From the NCBI GenBank assembly GCA_030648005.1, contig JAUSIP010000006.1:1-32619 (forward strand): a stretch of DNA of 32,619 nt, read 5' to 3'. Made by a program: the position numbers and the translations under genes. Numbering within the stretch: position 1 is the stretch's first letter; the number at the start of each line of letters is the position of its first letter. The stretch comes from a bacterium (GTDB lineage: Bacteria; Patescibacteriota; Minisyncoccia; Phycocordibacterales; UBA12445). A model generated the notes under the pieces. The model ran no database searches. It saw only the letters and a list, made by a program, of their open reading frames with translations, and had not been told where the DNA came from. Below are positions 10,999 to 30,308 of this stretch, piece after piece.

Positions 10999-12305
10999 AA
11001 GCTGAAGATCTGGCAAGGAAATATCTAGAATTCGGGGAACCGAATAAGGCGCTTGTGCTATTGAAGGAAATAGCACGCCTTGATCCGAAGAATAGTGACA
11101 AGAGAAGTGCTTACCTATACGCTATGCACTTCGCTAATATACCTCAAGAAGAAATCTTCCGGGAGCATCTGATGTTCAGTCGAGATTTTGAAACTCGAAG
11201 TGAGTCTCCGAGTTTTGAGGCGCACAGCAAAAAGATCCGCATAGGATACATCTCTCCCGACCTCTGCGCTCAAGCCTCAAGATACTGTCTTGAGCCAATA
11301 ACAACGCACCACAATAAAGAGATATTTGAAATATTTTTCTACTGCAATAGTCCGTATCATGATATTTATACCGATAAATTCAGGTCGCATGCGGATGGCT
11401 GGCGCGAGATCCAAGGAATGAACACGTATGATATAGTGAGCGGAATTCGTAGTGATAAAATAGATATTCTAGTAGACCTGGCTGGGCACACGAGTCTAAA
11501 CAATCTTCCGGTTTTCATGAGTCGAGTCGCACCCATACAAGTATCCTGGTTTGGATATATGGACACAACTGGTCTAGTAAATATGGATTATAGACTTACA
11601 GACGAATGGCGGACCCCACGAGATAGAGAGAAATTCTACACTGAGAAGCTTGTCTATATACCAAACTCTTACACATTCAAATCATATGAGAACTTGCCAC
11701 CAATAACACCTCCGCCAATGACCACAAACGGATATATCACCTTCGGATCATTCAACAGTTCGCAAAAAATAAATATAGAGGTGATCAACCTCTGGGCAGA
11801 AATTCTACATTCGATTCCGAACGCCAAACTGCTCTTTGTCACTCCCAGAGATGAAAGCTATGTTGAGGCTTTGCTTAAAAATTTTAATGCAAGAGGCATC
11901 GATACAAATAGAATTGTGATCCGCGAACGATCTTCAATGCCTAACTTTCTTTCATATATAAATGATGTAGACGTGGGACTTGATCCCTTCCCTTATACCG
12001 GCGGGGTCACGACATATCACGCACTTTCCCTCGGAGTGCCGACAATTACGTTGGAAGGCGATGTGGAATTCGCACGTAACTGCGGAGCTATCATGCGTGA
12101 GGCTGGAATATCGGCCTTAACGGTCTGTAAAACAAAAGATGAATATGTGACTAAAGCCATCGAATTTTCAAAAAATCCCGAGCTGCTCTTAAAATTACGT
12201 AAAAAACTTCCGCAAGAACTTCGATCAAGAGAGAAGGATACAGTAAAATACGTCGAAGAAGCCTTCCTTAAGATGTTCGAAGACCGACTTCGAACATCTG
12301 TCTAA
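10995..12305 (+). CDS. SPINDLY/OGT-like (GT41) glycosyltransferase, copy 2; C-terminus encoded by a REP element
   Basis: IDILVDLAGHTSLNNLPVFMSRVAPIQVSWFGYMDTTGLVNMDYRLTD...ITFGSFNSSQKINIEVINLW...VGLDPFPYTGGVTTYHALSLGVPTITLEG. Starts 4 bp inside the preceding gene. Confidence 0.92.
   Translation: MKAEDLARKYLEFGEPNKALVLLKEIARLDPKNSDKRSAYLYAMHFANIPQEEIFREHLMFSRDFETRSESPSFEAHSKKIRIGYISPDLCAQASRYCLEPITTHHNKEIFEIFFYCNSPYHDIYTDKFRSHADGWREIQGMNTYDIVSGIRSDKIDILVDLAGHTSLNNLPVFMSRVAPIQVSWFGYMDTTGLVNMDYRLTDEWRTPRDREKFYTEKLVYIPNSYTFKSYENLPPITPPPMTTNGYITFGSFNSSQKINIEVINLWAEILHSIPNAKLLFVTPRDESYVEALLKNFNARGIDTNRIVIRERSSMPNFLSYINDVDVGLDPFPYTGGVTTYHALSLGVPTITLEGDVEFARNCGAIMREAGISALTVCKTKDEYVTKAIEFSKNPELLLKLRKKLPQELRSREKDTVKYVEEAFLKMFEDRLRTSV
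12271..12299 (+). repeat. REP-like palindrome, copy 1 (inside GT41 copy 2 CDS)
   Basis: AGATGTTCGAAG-ACCGA-CTTCGAACATCT, perfect 12-nt arms. Confidence 0.92.
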
Positions 12306-20005: not shown

Positions 20006-20032
20006 AATGTTCGAAGACCGACTTCGAACATT
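20006..20032 (+). repeat. REP-like palindrome, copy 2
   Basis: AATGTTCGAAG-ACCGA-CTTCGAACATT. Confidence 0.9.
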
Positions 20033-21087: not shown

Positions 21088-22023
21088 ATGGACTCAAAAG
21101 AGAAGATCATTGTAAGTGTGGAATGCGGACTTGGCGACCATATCACAGCTGAACCGTCAATTCGTTATCTTATAGAGAAGGTTTATCCCGACAAAGACAT
21201 CCATATTTTCTGTGGGTGGCCGCGTGTTTTCTCGCACTTAAATGCAACGATTCACAAACATAATGGGCTCAAAGATCCACTCGGCGAAGGCGTCAGGAAG
21301 CTTCACACATTCCCGGCAACTGGCCCCCTACCGCAATCACTCTGCTTTCTAGTAACTCACATCTCTGACTTTCATTCAGCTTCTCTATTGTGTCGAACAT
21401 TGCCACTAGATGACAAGACCATTAAGCTTGTCGTGAACTCTGAAGACAAAGTATCGCTTGCGCTTGTACTGGGCGATGCAGATCCAAAAAATCTTGTGTT
21501 GGTACATGCAGGTAAAAGCTGGAAGAGCAAAACATTTCCAGCTAGCTGGTGGCTAGAAACTATCAATGCTCTTATAGGAAAAGGAATGCGAGTTTGTCTT
21601 GTTGGCAAGAGATCGTCTGATATATCGGCAGACAGCACGGGAATAGTAGAATTTGATGCCCCGCTAGGAGTTCTCGATCTGCGAGACAAGCTTGATATAG
21701 GCACCCTCTTCGCACTCGTCTCTGAAGCTCCTGTGCTTCTTTCAAACGACAGTTCGCTTATACAAATAGCGGGAGCATTCGACAACTGGATCGCCATGAT
21801 CGCCACATGCAAGCACCCCGACCTTGTTTTCCCTTATCGCAACAGCACTCCGAGACACAAAACTCTCGCACTTTATAAACGCCTTCTTGTGGACGATTGG
21901 AGATACGAGCCCATACGCGACCAGAGATTGCAAGTTAATGTGCCGGTTCTAGACTGGACGCCGTATCTTCCTGATCCGGAGGAGGTAGCGAGGGAGATTA
22001 ATAAGAGAATTTTCAATTTTTAA
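21088..22023 (+). CDS. Glycosyltransferase family 9 (heptosyltransferase-like); C-terminus encoded by the AT-rich repeat
   Basis: VSVECGLGDHITAEPSIRYLIEKVYPDKDIHIFCGWP; LVLVHAGKSWKSKTFPASWWLETINAL; PVLLSNDSSLIQIAGAFDNW. Confidence 0.8.
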   Translation: MDSKEKIIVSVECGLGDHITAEPSIRYLIEKVYPDKDIHIFCGWPRVFSHLNATIHKHNGLKDPLGEGVRKLHTFPATGPLPQSLCFLVTHISDFHSASLLCRTLPLDDKTIKLVVNSEDKVSLALVLGDADPKNLVLVHAGKSWKSKTFPASWWLETINALIGKGMRVCLVGKRSSDISADSTGIVEFDAPLGVLDLRDKLDIGTLFALVSEAPVLLSNDSSLIQIAGAFDNWIAMIATCKHPDLVFPYRNSTPRHKTLALYKRLLVDDWRYEPIRDQRLQVNVPVLDWTPYLPDPEEVAREINKRIFNF

Positions 22024-22118
22024 TTTGCAATTTTCAATAGATGTCACATTGAATCAATGTTTAAAACATTGAAGCATTGAAAATTCACTGGAAATTAGAA
22101 ATTGTAAATTAAAAATTA
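22005..22118. repeat. AT-rich MITE-like repeat, copy 2
   Basis: GAGAATTTTCAATTTTTAATTTGCAATTTTCAAT...CAATGTTTAAAACATTG...AAATTAGAAATTGTAAATTAAAAATTA. Confidence 0.85.
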
Positions 22119-22130
22119 AGCCAACTAGTT

Positions 22131-22724
22131 ATGCAAGAAACATCTAAATGCAGAAAAATTAGAGAATCAAACGGCGATTTCAATAAATATTTACGAGGAA
22201 GTGGTATTGATATCGGCGCGGGCGACGATCCGCTTGTTATACCAAATGGCATAGTCACTCCCTGGGACAAAAATTCCGGAGATGCAGAAGTGATGTCCGG
22301 AGTATCAGACAATTCATACGACTTCGTATATTCCTCCCACTGCCTTGAGCACATGCGGAGCGTCCCGAGAGCGCTTCAGAATTGGGCGCGAATCCTTCGT
22401 CCGGATGGATTTTTATATATCGTAATACCAGATTATATTTTGTATGAGAAGATGCGCTGGCCTTCACTCTTTAATCCCGACCACAAACAATCATTCTCGC
22501 CCATAATCACCCGCGATATGACAGGCAGGGAAAATCACCATCACCTCGAACAAGATCTCGCACCAATCCTTAATAGCCTAGCTTTCCGTATTATAGAGCG
22601 CAGAGTGGAAGATTATGGTTTTGATTACAACAAAGGAGTTGAAGACCAAACACTTGGAGAAGCAACGGCACAACTCTGCCTCATCGCCCAAAAAAATGTT
22701 CGAAGACCGACTTCGAACATCTAA
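22131..22724 (+). CDS. SAM-dependent methyltransferase (type 11-like); C-terminus encoded by a REP element
   Basis: YLRGSGIDIGAGDDPLVIPNGIVTPWD...YDFVYSSHCLEHMRSVPRALQNWARILRPDGFLYIVIPD. Confidence 0.87.
   Translation: MQETSKCRKIRESNGDFNKYLRGSGIDIGAGDDPLVIPNGIVTPWDKNSGDAEVMSGVSDNSYDFVYSSHCLEHMRSVPRALQNWARILRPDGFLYIVIPDYILYEKMRWPSLFNPDHKQSFSPIITRDMTGRENHHHLEQDLAPILNSLAFRIIERRVEDYGFDYNKGVEDQTLGEATAQLCLIAQKNVRRPTSNI
22696..22720 (+). repeat. REP-like palindrome, copy 3 (inside methyltransferase CDS, flanks RAYT)
   Basis: ATGTTCGAAG-ACCGA-CTTCGAACAT. Confidence 0.92.
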
Positions 22725-23422
22725 TCAAGAAGAATATTTTGGATCTCAGTATCACTTCCTTCTTTGAGCCATTCAATAACCTCCTGACGATATATGTCCG
22801 GAGATTTAAATATATCGCTTATAAAACTCTGTTCAATAAGCGAGGGAAAATTCTTTTTTCCACAATAATCCTGAAAACTGCTCCAACGGTATGAATCAAG
22901 AAACGCAAGAAGCTCCTTGTTGTTGGTGTCTGGCACCAAATCACATGGATTAAGGTGAATATAATGCGGAAGATATAAAAAATGTTCTTCACGACTCACA
23001 TGTTTAAATTTATAAACACCTTGGAACAAGGGGCCAACTCGGTCTCGAGCCAAATTAAAAGCATTTACATAGCCGGTTCCAACTTTCCGCATAAAAGTAG
23101 GGATGCCATTATCTACAAGTTGACGCAACATAAGGTGAAAATGATTGGGCATCAAACACCATGCCAAAATTTCCACCAATTTTGCCCTCTTTTTCACACC
23201 CGATGTTCCTGATGTTCGAAGTCGGTCTTCGAACTTATCGGTTAATTTATCATAACGAGGAAGACGGCGCTCGGTATTAGCAGCAGGCTTACTATCATTA
23301 AACTCCCAAAGACAGTGGGCAAAACGCGCATAGTCTCCTGTATCCAGAAAAATAACGCGCTTTTCCACGCCACGATTATAGACATGATAGATCTCGCCGG
23401 TTACCGGCTTTTCCCGTTCCAT
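22721..23422 (-). mobile_element. REP-associated tyrosine transposase (RAYT, Y1_Tnp/IS200-like)
   Basis: MEREKPVTGEIYHVYNRGVEKRVIF...EILAWCLMPNHFHLMLRQL (HUH motif) ...TFMRKVGTGYVNAFNLARDRVGPLFQGVYKFKHV..EEHFLYLPHYIHLNP. ORF track starts at 23488, but MFEVGLRTY there is REP sequence; Met at 23422 is the likelier start. Confidence 0.93.
23212..23236 (-). repeat. REP-like palindrome, copy 4 (inside the RAYT coding sequence)
   Basis: ATGTTCGAAG-TCGGT-CTTCGAACTT on plus; in frame on minus as KFEDRLRTSG. Confidence 0.9.
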
Positions 23423-23463
23423 GTCGGTGAGTATATAGTAAACGGATCTTAGTGTATATAGAT

Positions 23464-23488
23464 ATGTTCGAAGACCGACTTCGAACAT
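23464..23488 (+). repeat. REP-like palindrome, copy 5 (flanks RAYT, next to RCC1 stop)
   Basis: ATGTTCGAAG-ACCGA-CTTCGAACAT. Confidence 0.92.
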
Positions 23489-23502
23489 AGTGAAAGGCGG
23501 TT

Positions 23503-26500
23503 TTATGCAGTATCTAGGATGCCGGTTGTGTGGACAGCCCCGCCGGAGATAGAGATCCAGTTGGCCTTTGCGCCGATTTGAACAGGAGAGGATCTGTTGG
23601 TAGTACTAGAGTCACCGAGTTGTCCGGAGGCGTTTAGCCCCCATGCCCAAGCCTGGCTGTTAGTCTTTAATGCCAATGAATGAGACTGGCCACTTGCTAC
23701 AGATGCCCAGGTGGTCAAGGTGCCGATCTGGACTGGAGAAGATTTATTGACAACGGTGCCATCGCCGAGTTGTCCGACATCATTCTTCCCCCACGACCAA
23801 ACAGTGGAGTCAGTTTTACGCGCTAATGAGTGGTAGCGACCTCCTGCAACGCTAGCCCAATCGGTCAGGGTGCCGATCTTGACAGGTGAGGAACCAGGAG
23901 TGACATCGCCGAGTGCACCAGAGGTGTTATTACCCCATGCCCACAAAGTAGAGTCGGTTTTGGTAGCAAGAGCGTGGCAATGGCCAGCTGACACACTAGC
24001 CCAGTCAGTCAAAGTGCCGATCTTAACAGGAGAAGAACGGACTGTGGCGGAATTATCGCCAACTTGACCATGAGTGTTCTGGCCCCAGGCCCAGATAGTA
24101 GAATCTGTCTTGCGAGCGATAGAAAAATACAGCCCCCCAGCCACGCTTGCCCAGTCGGTCAGGGTGCCGACTTGAGTGGGAGAAGATCTGTTTGCAGTAT
24201 TACCAACACCGAGCATACCTACACTATTATATCCCCACGTCCAAAGAGTAGAGTCGGTTTTGACAGCCATAGAGTGATTGACTCCGGCCGCAACACTAGC
24301 CCAGTCGGTCAAAGTCCCAACCTGAACAGGCGAGGATTTAGCGACAGTAGTGCCGTCACCTATATGTCCCAAGTCATTCCTTCCCCATACCCAAATAGTA
24401 GAATCGGTCTTGCGAGCGATAGAGTGGTAAATTCCTCCGTCCACGCTTGCCCAATCGGTCAGAGTACCAACCTGAACAGGAGAAGATTTACCGACGGTGG
24501 TGCCGATACCGAGCTGGCCAGAGCCGTTGGATCCCCAAGTCCAGAGAGTGGAGTCAGTTTTAACGGCTAGAGAGTGGGAATAACCCGTTCCAATATTACT
24601 AGCCCAGTCGGTCAATGTGCCAATCTGAACTGGAGAGGAACTGTTAGCAGCTGTGCCATCACCACGCTGGCCGGATGCGCCGGCGCCCCATGCCCAGATG
24701 GTGGAGTCGGTTTTGGTGGCGAGGGAGTAGTAAATACCCGCTGTCAGACTGGCCCAGGTGGTCAGAGTGCCGATCTGGATGGGGGAAGATTTGTTGACAG
24801 TAGTGCCGTCACCAATCTGACCAAAATTATTCTTGCCCCATGCCCAGATGGTGGAGTCGGTTTTGCGGGCGAGGGAGTGTAGCTGACCACCAGAAACATT
24901 GGCCCATGTCGTTAAGACGCCAATCTGAACAGGAGAAGACCTGACGGAAATAAGTTCTGTTATCCTTGAGTCTCCCAACGCGCCACAGATGTTAGAACCC
25001 CACGACCAGATGGTGGAATCGGTTTTGGTAGCAAGGGAGTGACAATTACCCCCCGCTGCGCTAGCCCAGTCTGTCAAGGTGCCAACTTGAACAGGAGAAG
25101 ACCTGTCTGTAAGGGTACCGTCCCCAAGTTGACCGGAAGCATTCTTTCCCCACGACCAAAGAGTAGAGTCGGTTTTCAGGGCAAGAGAGTGGCAAAACCC
25201 ACCCGACACACTGGCCCAGTCGGTTAGGGTGCCGACCTGTACTGGAGAGGACTTGTTAACAGTGGTACCATCACCCATCTGTCCCGAACTGTTCAGCCCC
25301 CAAGACCAAATGGTGGAGTCGGTTTTACGAGCGAGGGAATGAAGGCCTCCGGCCGACACGCTGGCCCAGGTGGTCAGAGTGCCGATCTGGACAGGAGAAT
25401 TTTTGTCAACAGTTGTACCATCACCAAGCTGACCGGAAGCATTCAGACCCCACGACCAGATGGTGGAGTCGGTTTTACGGGCGAGATCATGGAAATTAAA
25501 AGTTGATACAGTTGACCAGTCGGTTAATGTACCAACTTGAAGTGGGGAGAAGCCAGGGATGACATCGCCGATCTGGCCGGAGCTGTTAAGTCCCCATGCC
25601 CAGAGAGTGGCATCGGTTTTAGCGGCGAGAGAATGGTAGTTACCACCCGCGACACTGGCCCAGGTGGTCAGGGTGCCAACCTTGACAGGAGACGACTTGT
25701 TGACAGTTGTGCCGTCGCCGAGCTGACCTGAGGTATTTAATCCCCAGGTCCAGATAGTAGAATCGGTTTTGTGGGCGAGAGAATGTGATATACCAGCAGC
25801 AAGAACAGACCAGTCAGTGAGTGTCCCTATTTGTCGTGGTGATGTGATGGCACCGAGGAAAATATTACCGAGTTGACCGACACTGTTCGATCCCCACAAC
25901 CAGATGGTGGAGTCGGTTTTTATAGCCAAGGAGTGATGCCACCCCGCAGCCACATTGGCCCAGGTGGTCAGAGTGCCGATCTGGACGGGAGAGGACTTAT
26001 TGACGGTTGTACCGTCGCCGAGTTGTCCAAGATTACTCGCTCCCCACGCCCAGAGAGTGGAATCAGTTTTTGTAGCAAGAGATTGATAACGCCCAGCTGC
26101 TATATTGGCCCAGTCGGTCAAAGTACCAATCTTAACAGGAGAAGAACGAACGGTAGCAGTGCCATCACCGAGCTGTCCAGAAACATTCTGTCCCCACGCC
26201 CAGAGGGTGGAGTCAGTTTTGCGGGCAAGGGAGTAACGAATCCCCGGTACGACAATAGCCCAGTCGGTCAGAGTACCGATCTGTACAGGAGAGGACTTAC
26301 CGACAGCAGTACCGATGCCGAGTTGACCTTCAGCATTCCTCCCCCACGCCCATGCAGTGGAATCAGTTTTGCGAGCAAGGGAGAAGTAACGCCCTCCTGC
26401 TATATCAGCCCAAGTGGTCAAAGTTCCGATCTGAATGGGGGAGGATTTGTTAACAGTGGTGCCGTCGCCGAGCTCACCCTGGGCATTCGCTCCCCACGAC

Positions 26501-27789
26501 CAGATGGTAGAGTCGGTTTTACGGGCAACGGAAGAAAAATAATATCCCGCCGCTACACTGGCCCAATCGGTCAAGGTGCCGATCTGAATAGGAGAAGACT
26601 TATTGACAGTGGTGCCGTCGCCTAGCTGGCCAATATTATTTCTACCCCACGACCAGATAGTGGAATCAGTTTTATGAGCTATAGAGTGAGATGACCCAGA
26701 CACACTAGCCCAGTCAGCCAAGGTACCGATCTGGGTGGGAGAGGATTTGTTCGCCGTGGTGCCATCACCTAGTTGGCCGACAGTATTCGACCCCCACGTC
26801 CAGATAGTTGAATCCGTTTTACGGGCAATAGAGTGGTAAACTCCTCCCGCTATATTGGCCCAAGTGGTCAAGAGGCCAACCTGACCTGGAGAAGATGTAT
26901 TAGCAGTAGTGGTCACAACAGGCACTGTCGGATCTCCCAGCTGACCAACACTAGTACTCCCCCACCCCCAGATTGTACTGTCTGTCTTAACCGCTAGAGA
27001 GTGCGATCCGCCGGCATATATTGCAGCCCAGGTGGTCAAAGTACCGATCTGCACAGGAGAAGATTTATTAACAGTAGTACCATCACCAAGTTCACCCGAA
27101 GCGTTCAGTCCCCACGACCAGATAGTGGCATCAGTTTTACGGGCGAGGGAGTGTGAGCCTCCTCCCGACACACTAGCCCAGTCTGTCAGAGTACCGATCT
27201 GAACTGGAGATGACTTAGCTACAGTAGTGCCGTCACCAAGTGGGCCAACAACGTTCCTTCCCCACGACCATATGGTGGAGTCAGTCTTGCGAGCAAGAGA
27301 GTGATAAAATCCACCATCCACACTGGCCCAAGTGGTTAGAGTGCCAATCTGCACAGGAGAGGATTTGTTGACGGTTGTACCGTCACCCAGTGTACCGGAG
27401 CTGTTCCTACCCCACGACCAGATGGTGGAGTCGGTTTTGCGGGCGAGAGAGTGAGAACTACCCGCCCACACACTAGCCCAGGTGACCAAAGCACCGATCT
27501 GAACAGGAGAGGATTTATTGACAGTGGTGCCATCACCGAGCTGGCCGCAATTATTCTGCCCCCATGACCAGATAGTGGAATCAGTTTTGGTAGCGAGTGA
27601 ATAACGAGCCCCTCCCGCCGCACTGGCCCAATTGGTCAAAGTTCCGACTTGAACAGGAGAAGATCTGTTTGCAGCATCTACTGTAGTCGCAATTCCCAAC
27701 TGCCCCGACAAGTTTGATCCCCAGGAGAAAAGACCTTCGACTGCTGCCACCACGGCCGACACCATCATCATTAACCTGTTGCTTAACAT
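23503..27789 (-). CDS. Giant RCC1-repeat (beta-propeller) protein, 28 repeats
   Basis: 28 tandem copies of a unit like TIWSWGxNxxGQLGDGTTVNKSSPVQIGTLTxWASVxGGxxHSLARKTDS; N-terminal MLSNRLMMMVSAVVAAVEG. Confidence 0.95.
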   Translation of the reverse strand: MLSNRLMMMVSAVVAAVEGLFSWGSNLSGQLGIATTVDAANRSSPVQVGTLTNWASAAGGARYSLATKTDSTIWSWGQNNCGQLGDGTTVNKSSPVQIGALVTWASVWAGSSHSLARKTDSTIWSWGRNSSGTLGDGTTVNKSSPVQIGTLTTWASVDGGFYHSLARKTDSTIWSWGRNVVGPLGDGTTVAKSSPVQIGTLTDWASVSGGGSHSLARKTDATIWSWGLNASGELGDGTTVNKSSPVQIGTLTTWAAIYAGGSHSLAVKTDSTIWGWGSTSVGQLGDPTVPVVTTTANTSSPGQVGLLTTWANIAGGVYHSIARKTDSTIWTWGSNTVGQLGDGTTANKSSPTQIGTLADWASVSGSSHSIAHKTDSTIWSWGRNNIGQLGDGTTVNKSSPIQIGTLTDWASVAAGYYFSSVARKTDSTIWSWGANAQGELGDGTTVNKSSPIQIGTLTTWADIAGGRYFSLARKTDSTAWAWGRNAEGQLGIGTAVGKSSPVQIGTLTDWAIVVPGIRYSLARKTDSTLWAWGQNVSGQLGDGTATVRSSPVKIGTLTDWANIAAGRYQSLATKTDSTLWAWGASNLGQLGDGTTVNKSSPVQIGTLTTWANVAAGWHHSLAIKTDSTIWLWGSNSVGQLGNIFLGAITSPRQIGTLTDWSVLAAGISHSLAHKTDSTIWTWGLNTSGQLGDGTTVNKSSPVKVGTLTTWASVAGGNYHSLAAKTDATLWAWGLNSSGQIGDVIPGFSPLQVGTLTDWSTVSTFNFHDLARKTDSTIWSWGLNASGQLGDGTTVDKNSPVQIGTLTTWASVSAGGLHSLARKTDSTIWSWGLNSSGQMGDGTTVNKSSPVQVGTLTDWASVSGGFCHSLALKTDSTLWSWGKNASGQLGDGTLTDRSSPVQVGTLTDWASAAGGNCHSLATKTDSTIWSWGSNICGALGDSRITELISVRSSPVQIGVLTTWANVSGGQLHSLARKTDSTIWAWGKNNFGQIGDGTTVNKSSPIQIGTLTTWASLTAGIYYSLATKTDSTIWAWGAGASGQRGDGTAANSSSPVQIGTLTDWASNIGTGYSHSLAVKTDSTLWTWGSNGSGQLGIGTTVGKSSPVQVGTLTDWASVDGGIYHSIARKTDSTIWVWGRNDLGHIGDGTTVAKSSPVQVGTLTDWASVAAGVNHSMAVKTDSTLWTWGYNSVGMLGVGNTANRSSPTQVGTLTDWASVAGGLYFSIARKTDSTIWAWGQNTHGQVGDNSATVRSSPVKIGTLTDWASVSAGHCHALATKTDSTLWAWGNNTSGALGDVTPGSSPVKIGTLTDWASVAGGRYHSLARKTDSTVWSWGKNDVGQLGDGTVVNKSSPVQIGTLTTWASVASGQSHSLALKTNSQAWAWGLNASGQLGDSSTTNRSSPVQIGAKANWISISGGAVHTTGILDTA

Positions 27790-29435: not shown

Positions 29436-30152
29436 TTAATATCGCTTACTAAGTCCCCAACCCACTAAGTACAATAATATCATGGGAGTAGTGAAAATCA
29501 ACATAGTTATCCCCGTGCCATCGGGTGTGATAACAGCAGAAAAAGCAAAGAATGCAAAGAATGCGTGGCGCCAATACTCTCCCCATGTAGCTTTATCTAC
29601 AAAACCAGTAATATTGAGCGTCAACATTATAATAGGCAGGAGAAATATGATTCCGGAGATGATCATCAACATAACAACAGTACCCACAAAATCACTGACG
29701 TCAATTAACGGCTTAACACCAAGTCGCTCGGCAAATCTATACATTATGGAGAAGGTTGGAGATATAAAAAAATAATAAGCGAACATAGCTCCAGACAAAA
29801 AGAGTATGAACGATGGCGCTAAAACCTTCGCAAAAGTACGACGTTCATGCTCATATAATCCGGGGGAGAAGTAGCGGAATGCCATCCAAGCAAACCACGG
29901 AAAAACACAAAAGAAACCCAGGGCAAAAGCTATCTCCATATCAGAAATAGCCGAACTCCATATTGAGAGTGACACCAGTTCTACACCTTCTGGCACAAGA
30001 TCGACACTCATTTTTCTAAAAATTCTCGAAGATATACTCTGCGAAGAAGGAAATGATAAGAAGAAGGTCGCTAATATTAGAGAAAATAACAAACCTAGTG
30101 CAACTCTTTTTGCTATATTAGAAAATTCCTGAAATTCATGGAGGTAGGACAT
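29436..30152 (-). CDS. tatC: Sec-independent translocase TatC
   Basis: SYLHEFQEFSNIAKRVALGLLFSLILATFFLSFP...EIAFALGFFCVFPWFAWMAFRYFSPGLYEHERRTF...FFAFFAFSAVITPDGTGITMLIFTTPMILLYLVG. Confidence 0.93.
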   Translation of the reverse strand: MSYLHEFQEFSNIAKRVALGLLFSLILATFFLSFPSSQSISSRIFRKMSVDLVPEGVELVSLSIWSSAISDMEIAFALGFFCVFPWFAWMAFRYFSPGLYEHERRTFAKVLAPSFILFLSGAMFAYYFFISPTFSIMYRFAERLGVKPLIDVSDFVGTVVMLMIISGIIFLLPIIMLTLNITGFVDKATWGEYWRHAFFAFFAFSAVITPDGTGITMLIFTTPMILLYLVGWGLSKRY

Positions 30153-30178
30153 CTTTAAATACTAAGATATTTAAAGAT

Positions 30179-30272
30179 AATTTTCAATTTTACAATTCTT
30201 AATTTTCAATCAATTTTTAATGTTTCAATGTTTTAAAAATTGGTTCATTGTGACATTGACTGAAAATTGGAA
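30179..30272. repeat. AT-rich MITE-like repeat, copy 6
   Basis: AATTTTCAATTTTACAATTCTTAATTTTCAATCAATTTTTAATGTTTCAATGTTTTAAAAATTGGTTCATTGTGACATTGACTGAAAATT. Confidence 0.82.
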
Positions 30273-30279
30273 AACCAAT

Positions 30280-30308
30280 AGATGTTTGAAGACCGACTTC
30301 GAACATCT
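30280..30308 (+). repeat. REP-like palindrome, copy 6
   Basis: AGATGTTTGAAG-ACCGA-CTTCGAACATCT, one mismatch. Confidence 0.88.

Follow-up and report, generated by a model that had tools for sequence, protein, structure and literature searches.

A palindrome inside the gene of a putative RAYT-type transposase of Patescibacteria matches the palindromes that flank the gene

REP-associated tyrosine transposases (RAYTs, TnpA-REP) and REPtrons have been described in E. coli, Pseudomonas, and Stenotrophomonas. The proteins contain an HUH motif and a Y---NP motif, the latter being the signature of class 2 (TnpA-REP) proteins (PMC6006769), and have the fold of the structure 4ER8. In REPtrons cognate palindromes flank the gene, further copies are dispersed, and each RAYT has a palindrome of its own (PMC3686654, PMC8266576). 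The mechanisms of REP dissemination are poorly understood (PMC8266576); Nunvar and colleagues proposed that RAYTs prefer the REPs that adjoin their own gene (PMC3686654). REPs within genes are already known: according to the accessible part of PMC3733652, GTAG/CGTC REPs lie in frame and often as dimers inside unrelated genes, including genes for DNA replication and repair and for tRNA synthetases. The elements IS200/IS605 comprise a Y1/HUH transposase bounded by hairpins. Rickettsia palindromic elements (RPE) are in-frame palindromes in protein genes of small genomes, and these elements are not known to have a RAYT partner. RPE-1 elements are longer than the palindromes treated here (PMC3733652, accessible part).

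The locus analyzed here lies in the window, i.e., the whole stretch of 32,619 nucleotides of DNA from a patescibacterial genome. Judged from its sequence, it belongs to a patescibacterial RAYT lineage and constitutes a REPtron, with a Y1/HUH transposase gene and cognate flanking palindromes. It has the motifs, the fold, the flanking and dispersed palindromes, and the individual palindrome of each RAYT in common with the described REPtrons. In contrast to these, the lineage has a third cognate palindrome in the coding sequence, no GTAG/GTGG guide, perfectly symmetric dyads with random loop orientation, and a weak match to the NCBIfam RAYT family. In-frame palindromes within unrelated genes are shared with the intragenic GTAG/CGTC REPs and with RPE; however, the sites of the former are mostly unrelated between species (PMC3733652, accessible part), whereas the palindrome described here has a fixed place, is conserved, and is cognate. 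Unlike IS200/IS605, near-identical copies of the element are absent from its own genome. The literature searched, including the accessible parts of PMC6006769, PMC8266576, PMC3686654, and PMC3733652, yielded no description of a conserved, co-evolving REP within a RAYT gene, and the paper of Bertels and colleagues on domesticated transposases may mention it. A pairing of RAYT/REP with Patescibacteria was likewise not found in the literature searched, and thus RAYT/REP systems are extended to this group.

A RAYT-type transposase gene and its palindromes

The open frame at 22721–23488 (minus strand) encodes a RAYT-type Y1 transposase. The start typical of the family is the inner ATG at 23422, resulting in a protein of 233 aa (22721–23422); the frame is open up to 23488, and the upstream flanking palindrome provides an alternative ATG. 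In the HUH motif N93-H94-F95-H96 (23135–23146, minus strand) both histidines were invariant in alignments of 15 and 53 sequences. The predicted catalytic tyrosine is Y154 in the sequence Y154-I-H-L-N-P (22946–22963, minus strand), which represents the Y---NP motif; in the homologue alignment Y154 and N158 were invariant and P159 nearly so. The best Foldseek match was 4er8_A (E 1.2e-6, TM 0.69 on the target). 4ER8, an E. coli REP-associated tyrosine transposase with a bound REP hairpin, is thus the nearest solved structure; it came from the fold search, and a sequence profile search of the PDB with the protein yielded no match. The score for NCBIfam NF047646 (REP_Tyr_transpos) was 37.7 bits and did not reach the curated cut-off of 80, and therefore the protein is regarded as a diverged RAYT. 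The score for PF01797 was 22.0–23.2 bits at a cut-off of 23. With both motifs and 4ER8 as nearest structure, the identification as a RAYT made in a preliminary description of this DNA was upheld.

Three diverged RAYTs are encoded in the genome, each with a different palindrome, and the other two are about 35–41% identical to that of the window. One of them (L010, C4:28540-29106) has an internal copy of its palindrome at nt 189, the other (L011, C8:817-1464) has copies at the flanks only. A 1428-aa open frame with RCC1/alpha-tubulin-suppressor-like repeats (23503–27789, minus strand) begins beside the upstream palindrome region.

As had been reported before, the transposase gene is flanked by two identical 25-mers, ATGTTCGAAG-ACCGA-CTTCGAACAT. 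The upstream copy (23464–23488, plus strand) has perfect 11-bp arms (23463–23489) and ends 41 bp upstream of the ATG at 23422. The downstream copy (22696–22720, plus strand) abuts the stop codon and also encodes the C-terminus NVRRPTSNI of a convergent methyltransferase gene (22131–22724). The internal copy (23212–23236, minus strand; ATGTTCGAAGTCGGTCTTCGAACTT on the plus strand) is inverted relative to the flanks and matches them at 24 of 25 bases, the mismatch being at an outer position. It is translated in frame as KFEDRLRTSG between residue 63 and the HUH motif. The earlier account had placed it correctly in the coding sequence and had given this peptide. The perfect dyad of this copy has arms of 8 bp (23214–23234) rather than 10 bp. 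As single-stranded DNA it folds with −9 kcal/mol (z −4.6). The copy is located in a linker (codons 51–75, 23198–23272, minus strand) between the helix 28–40 and the strand 83–90 of the AlphaFold2 model, in which the pLDDT was 51–65 at these residues versus >90 in the core. According to the model, the linker is floppy and able to absorb changing peptides.

The window contains five exact copies of the core and one variant, while no match was expected from shuffled sequences, and thus a chance palindrome was ruled out. Apart from the three copies at the RAYT gene, these are located at 12273–12297 (plus strand; 3′-end of a TPR/O-GlcNAc-transferase-like gene, C-terminus MFEDRLRTSV), at 20007–20031 (plus strand; intergenic), and at 30282–30306 (plus strand; one mismatch, 3′-end of a minus-strand open frame of 440 aa). 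In the 757-kb genome (20 contigs), which is probably that of a patescibacterium of the Parcubacteria type, 11 copies with at most two mismatches were found and none of the reversed pattern, so that the palindrome is enriched elsewhere in the genome. The copies at both flanks and the 11 dispersed copies agree with its earlier designation as the probable cognate REP. The majority of the copies lie at gene ends or just beyond, and one lies in frame within a DHFR gene. Six of the 11 are on the 32.6-kb RAYT contig; without the three RAYT copies, 3 of 8 fell on 4.3% of the genome (p = 0.004 in a post hoc test).

In the orientation ACCGA, the loop and the 3′ arm (GACCGACTTCGAACAT) were invariant in all 11 copies and changes were confined to the 5′ arm (AAGTTC, ATGTTT, ATGCAC), as if one end had stayed fixed during copying. 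A GT(A/G)G tetranucleotide was absent from the hairpin foot, and the 11 copies had no common sequence outside the dyad. Two AT-rich intergenic stretches at 22020–22120 and about 30150–30280, adjoining two palindrome sites, are alike (AATTTTCAAT.., CAATGTTTAAAACATTG). The palindrome, loop variants included, was not found in other species in an exact-core scan of the GTDB species collection, which may leave out the window's own genome. In a second genome, G054, identical arms with a different loop stand on both sides of and within a RAYT gene, a first indication of a recurrent architecture.

The internal palindrome in the RAYT lineage

The homologue set comprised 158 distinct RAYT genes from a sample of 286 genomes of the class and from named contigs. 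A homologue was present in 172 of the 286 genomes; the named relatives were mainly Azam-, Giovannoni-, Portnoy-, Wolfe- and Yanofskybacteria. Each coding sequence was compared without gaps with the 130-nt flanks of its gene on both strands, and the best match was taken as score, with a threshold of ≥17. It was revealed that 129 of the 158 genes (82%) have an internal palindrome that matches their own flanks, a figure for the lineage of the window only, because the sampling favors window-like genes and the relatives are not independent. When coding sequences and flanks were mismatched, 1.3% of 1,487 draws reached 17. An oddity of this one genome was thus ruled out, and the statement that a REP inside a RAYT gene is unusual does not hold for these relatives, which mostly have it at the same linker.

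In 107 genes the copy was found at site A (nt 130–235), which is the linker just upstream of the HUH motif where the window's copy is also located, and in 15 genes at site B (nt 440–530), a second linker after the tyrosine. A few further copies were at the extreme 3′-end of the gene, and none was at nt 240–440, the catalytic core. Two or three internal copies were present in 22 genes, and the clean dyad was gone in 25 of the 107 site-A copies. The 29 genes without an internal copy were scattered on a tree made without the linker columns, and the supported branches forced at least seven changes. Of 23 genes sampled from the phylum outside the class, about 9 had an internal copy. Nine canonical RAYTs, plasmid-borne or from E. 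coli, served as controls from other phyla (E. coli, Pseudomonas, Chromobacterium, cyanobacteria, Chloroflexota, Methylomonas); none reached 17, the highest score being 16 for one Chromobacterium gene, and several have matching flanks. RAYTs of the lineage, several of them with inner palindromes, were also encountered in bins of Spirochaetia, Omnitrophota, Thermodesulfovibrionia, Nitrospiraceae, Gastranaerophilales, and Nanoarchaeota (L141, L148, L167, L175, L176, L179, L182, L189, L200, L213), due to either transfer or mis-binning.

A search for REP-less homologues that share KFEDRLRTS revealed that the peptide is not shared and that the homologues have their own palindromes there instead, which differ in sequence and in some cases also in frame. 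Palindromes vary between RAYT genes, including paralogues in the same genome. The inner copy matched its own flanks better than those of its paralogues in 51 of the 54 genes that came from 23 multi-RAYT genomes (median 23 versus 10.5, Wilcoxon p = 1.5e-10), and this same-genome control ruled out low-complexity or compositional matching. In 88 pairs of RAYTs with 60–86% protein identity and the same site, the inner copies differed from each other at a mean of 4.8 of 19 positions, while an inner copy differed from its own flank at only 0.39 positions, a value that is skewed downwards, since an inner-flank difference of ≤4 was the condition for inclusion. The two genes L088 and L097 of one genome, for example, are 72% identical; their inner copies differ at seven positions from one another and at none from their own flanks, except for the loop orientation.

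The codon frame of the palindrome center at site A was 0, 1, and 2 in 67, 10, and 4 of 81 scored genes, respectively, and at site B it was frame 1 in 15 of 15 genes. The bias at site A points to what may have been one old insertion with some resets. The encoded peptides in homologues are unrelated or only loosely similar. In pairs among the upstream, internal, and downstream copies the loop orientation was the same in 72 and inverted in 76 cases. Because the reading frame varies and the loop orientation is 50:50, it is the DNA that persists and not the peptide; conservation at the peptide level was ruled out by the variation of frames and peptides. On the comparative evidence, this patescibacterial RAYT lineage is characterized by an inner palindrome that is conserved, cognate, and subject to concerted evolution. 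The initial observation was correct, and its interpretation was understated.

Possible origins of the internal palindrome

To be explained are the observed presence and place of the inner copy, its cognate match, its stepwise turnover together with the flanks, and the variability of its frame and loop orientation. The dyads reach outwards into sequence that is locus-specific and yet self-complementary, by a mean of 1.88 bp compared with 0.51 bp for a left and a right flank drawn from different copies; extensions of ≥5 bp occurred in 43 versus 3 cases. In the window's own genome the values were 1.57 versus 0.52 (p = 0.018). The copies at L030, L049, L081, L085, L091, L099, L174, and L203 sit within longer perfect dyads with locus-specific outer arms of up to 24 bp, as if adjoining DNA had been copied inverted. 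Template switching is reported to homogenize the arms of inverted repeats and to invert the spacer (PMC8604942, accessible part), and the outward extension together with the mixed loop orientation suggest that such switching takes place inside the individual palindromes during replication. This process can hold a dyad within a gene perfect without selection. That three separate copies change together is beyond template switching, and therefore copying between loci is needed, for which the RAYT is the obvious candidate agent.

The explanation that we consider probable, by a modest measure, is that the inner copy is a by-product of palindrome copying in cis and not a protein motif. An ancient insertion into the linker would have been tolerated and then inherited, and the RAYT would continually replace older palindromes at its locus by copies of the current one, with the result that the inner and the outer copies would change together. 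Template switching during replication would keep the arms complementary, lengthen them into locus-specific sequence, and flip the loop. Several points stand against it: no copying event was seen, the orthologous family loci being too diverged for clean empty sites; the retention of 82%, which extends to relatives of only about 37% identity, is more than a by-product would lead one to expect; and the palindromes, on which the RAYT is a putative agent, are devoid of the GTAG-type guide tetranucleotide of known REPs. The scattered losses fit a by-product and a functional element alike. In this lineage a cognate copy occupies a constant position, which can be aligned, within a protein gene for which trees can be made, and two flanking copies lie beside it. 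With more than 100 natural replicates of the joint change of target and enzyme, the overwriting of palindromes in cis by RAYTs can be tested directly.

Alternatively, the internal palindrome might be a functional cis-element, a possibility that we regard as doubtful. The RAYT would bind the hairpin of its own gene, either in the mRNA or in DNA that is single-stranded at the fork or within the transcription bubble, and would thereby limit its own expression or activity. Because of this binding, the inner copy would have to stay cognate as the specificity of the protein drifts. The high retention at two preferred sites, the cognate match and concerted change, the maintenance as nucleic acid while the frame varies, and the stable hairpin are in accordance with such a role. 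However, the element is missing from 29 genes, including clades with intact flanking palindromes, nearly a quarter of the site-A copies have lost the clean dyad, RAYTs of other phyla are devoid of it, and the upstream copy, usually 20–50 nt from the start codon, could already act as an operator. It is conceivable, though rather unlikely, that the lineage must carry its current DNA target within its own gene for self-recognition or autoregulation; if true, the specificity of the protein and the target in gene and flanks would change locked together.

Frequent fresh insertion, with linkers as the sites at which the protein would survive an in-frame insertion and with descent playing a minor role, is improbable. 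All three frames, two sites, several copies in some genes, and palindromes within many other genes would be expected from it, but there is a strong frame bias at site A although all frames of GAAGTCSGACTTC, the commonest core, are free of stop codons. Furthermore, site-specific outer arms were kept in some close relatives (L025/L028), and other surface loops are almost never used. That the encoded peptide itself is selected, as an extra DNA-contacting loop of the transposase, is hardly credible: the frame bias at site A and the vicinity of the linker to the HUH strand speak for it, but peptides and frames vary widely among homologues, the segment is predicted to be disordered, and the DNA tracks the flanks, which are untranslated.

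Palindromes in other genes and genomes

Palindromes were found within many further genes. In the window's own genome, the DHFR gene (L020:1224-1718, minus strand; C19 near 23838–23858) has an in-frame copy, ..TRKMFEVGLRTFRVA.., and is no longer than the DHFRs of two family genomes (53–57% identical) or solved DHFRs. When the 11 copies were compared with family genomes in search of empty sites, only DHFR could be aligned across a copy. In-frame palindromes or inverted pairs are also present in core genes of other Patescibacteria (L247, L252, L237, L250, L249), which encode threonyl-tRNA synthetase, the CCA enzyme, MiaA, DnaX, and a 656-aa protein. The net length compared with solved homologues was 0 for DHFR and MiaA, +1 for DnaX, about +12 for ThrS, and +9 residues for the CCA enzyme, with palindromes of 7–12 codons in these five genes. 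Both insertion and replacement thus occur, and in view of this mixed result an overwriting rule suggested by the length-neutral DHFR was dropped. For the explanation by re-copying in cis, a single copying mechanism is unproven, because the intragenic copies in DHFR, MiaA, and DnaX are length-neutral and those in ThrS and the CCA enzyme are insertions.

The core GAAGTCSGACTTC was present in 69 of 172 RAYT-bearing versus 17 of 114 RAYT-free genomes of the class, an association with an odds ratio of 3.8 (p = 4e-6, kinship ignored). It occurred in up to 38 copies, with frequent REPIN-like inverted pairs 18–24 nt apart.
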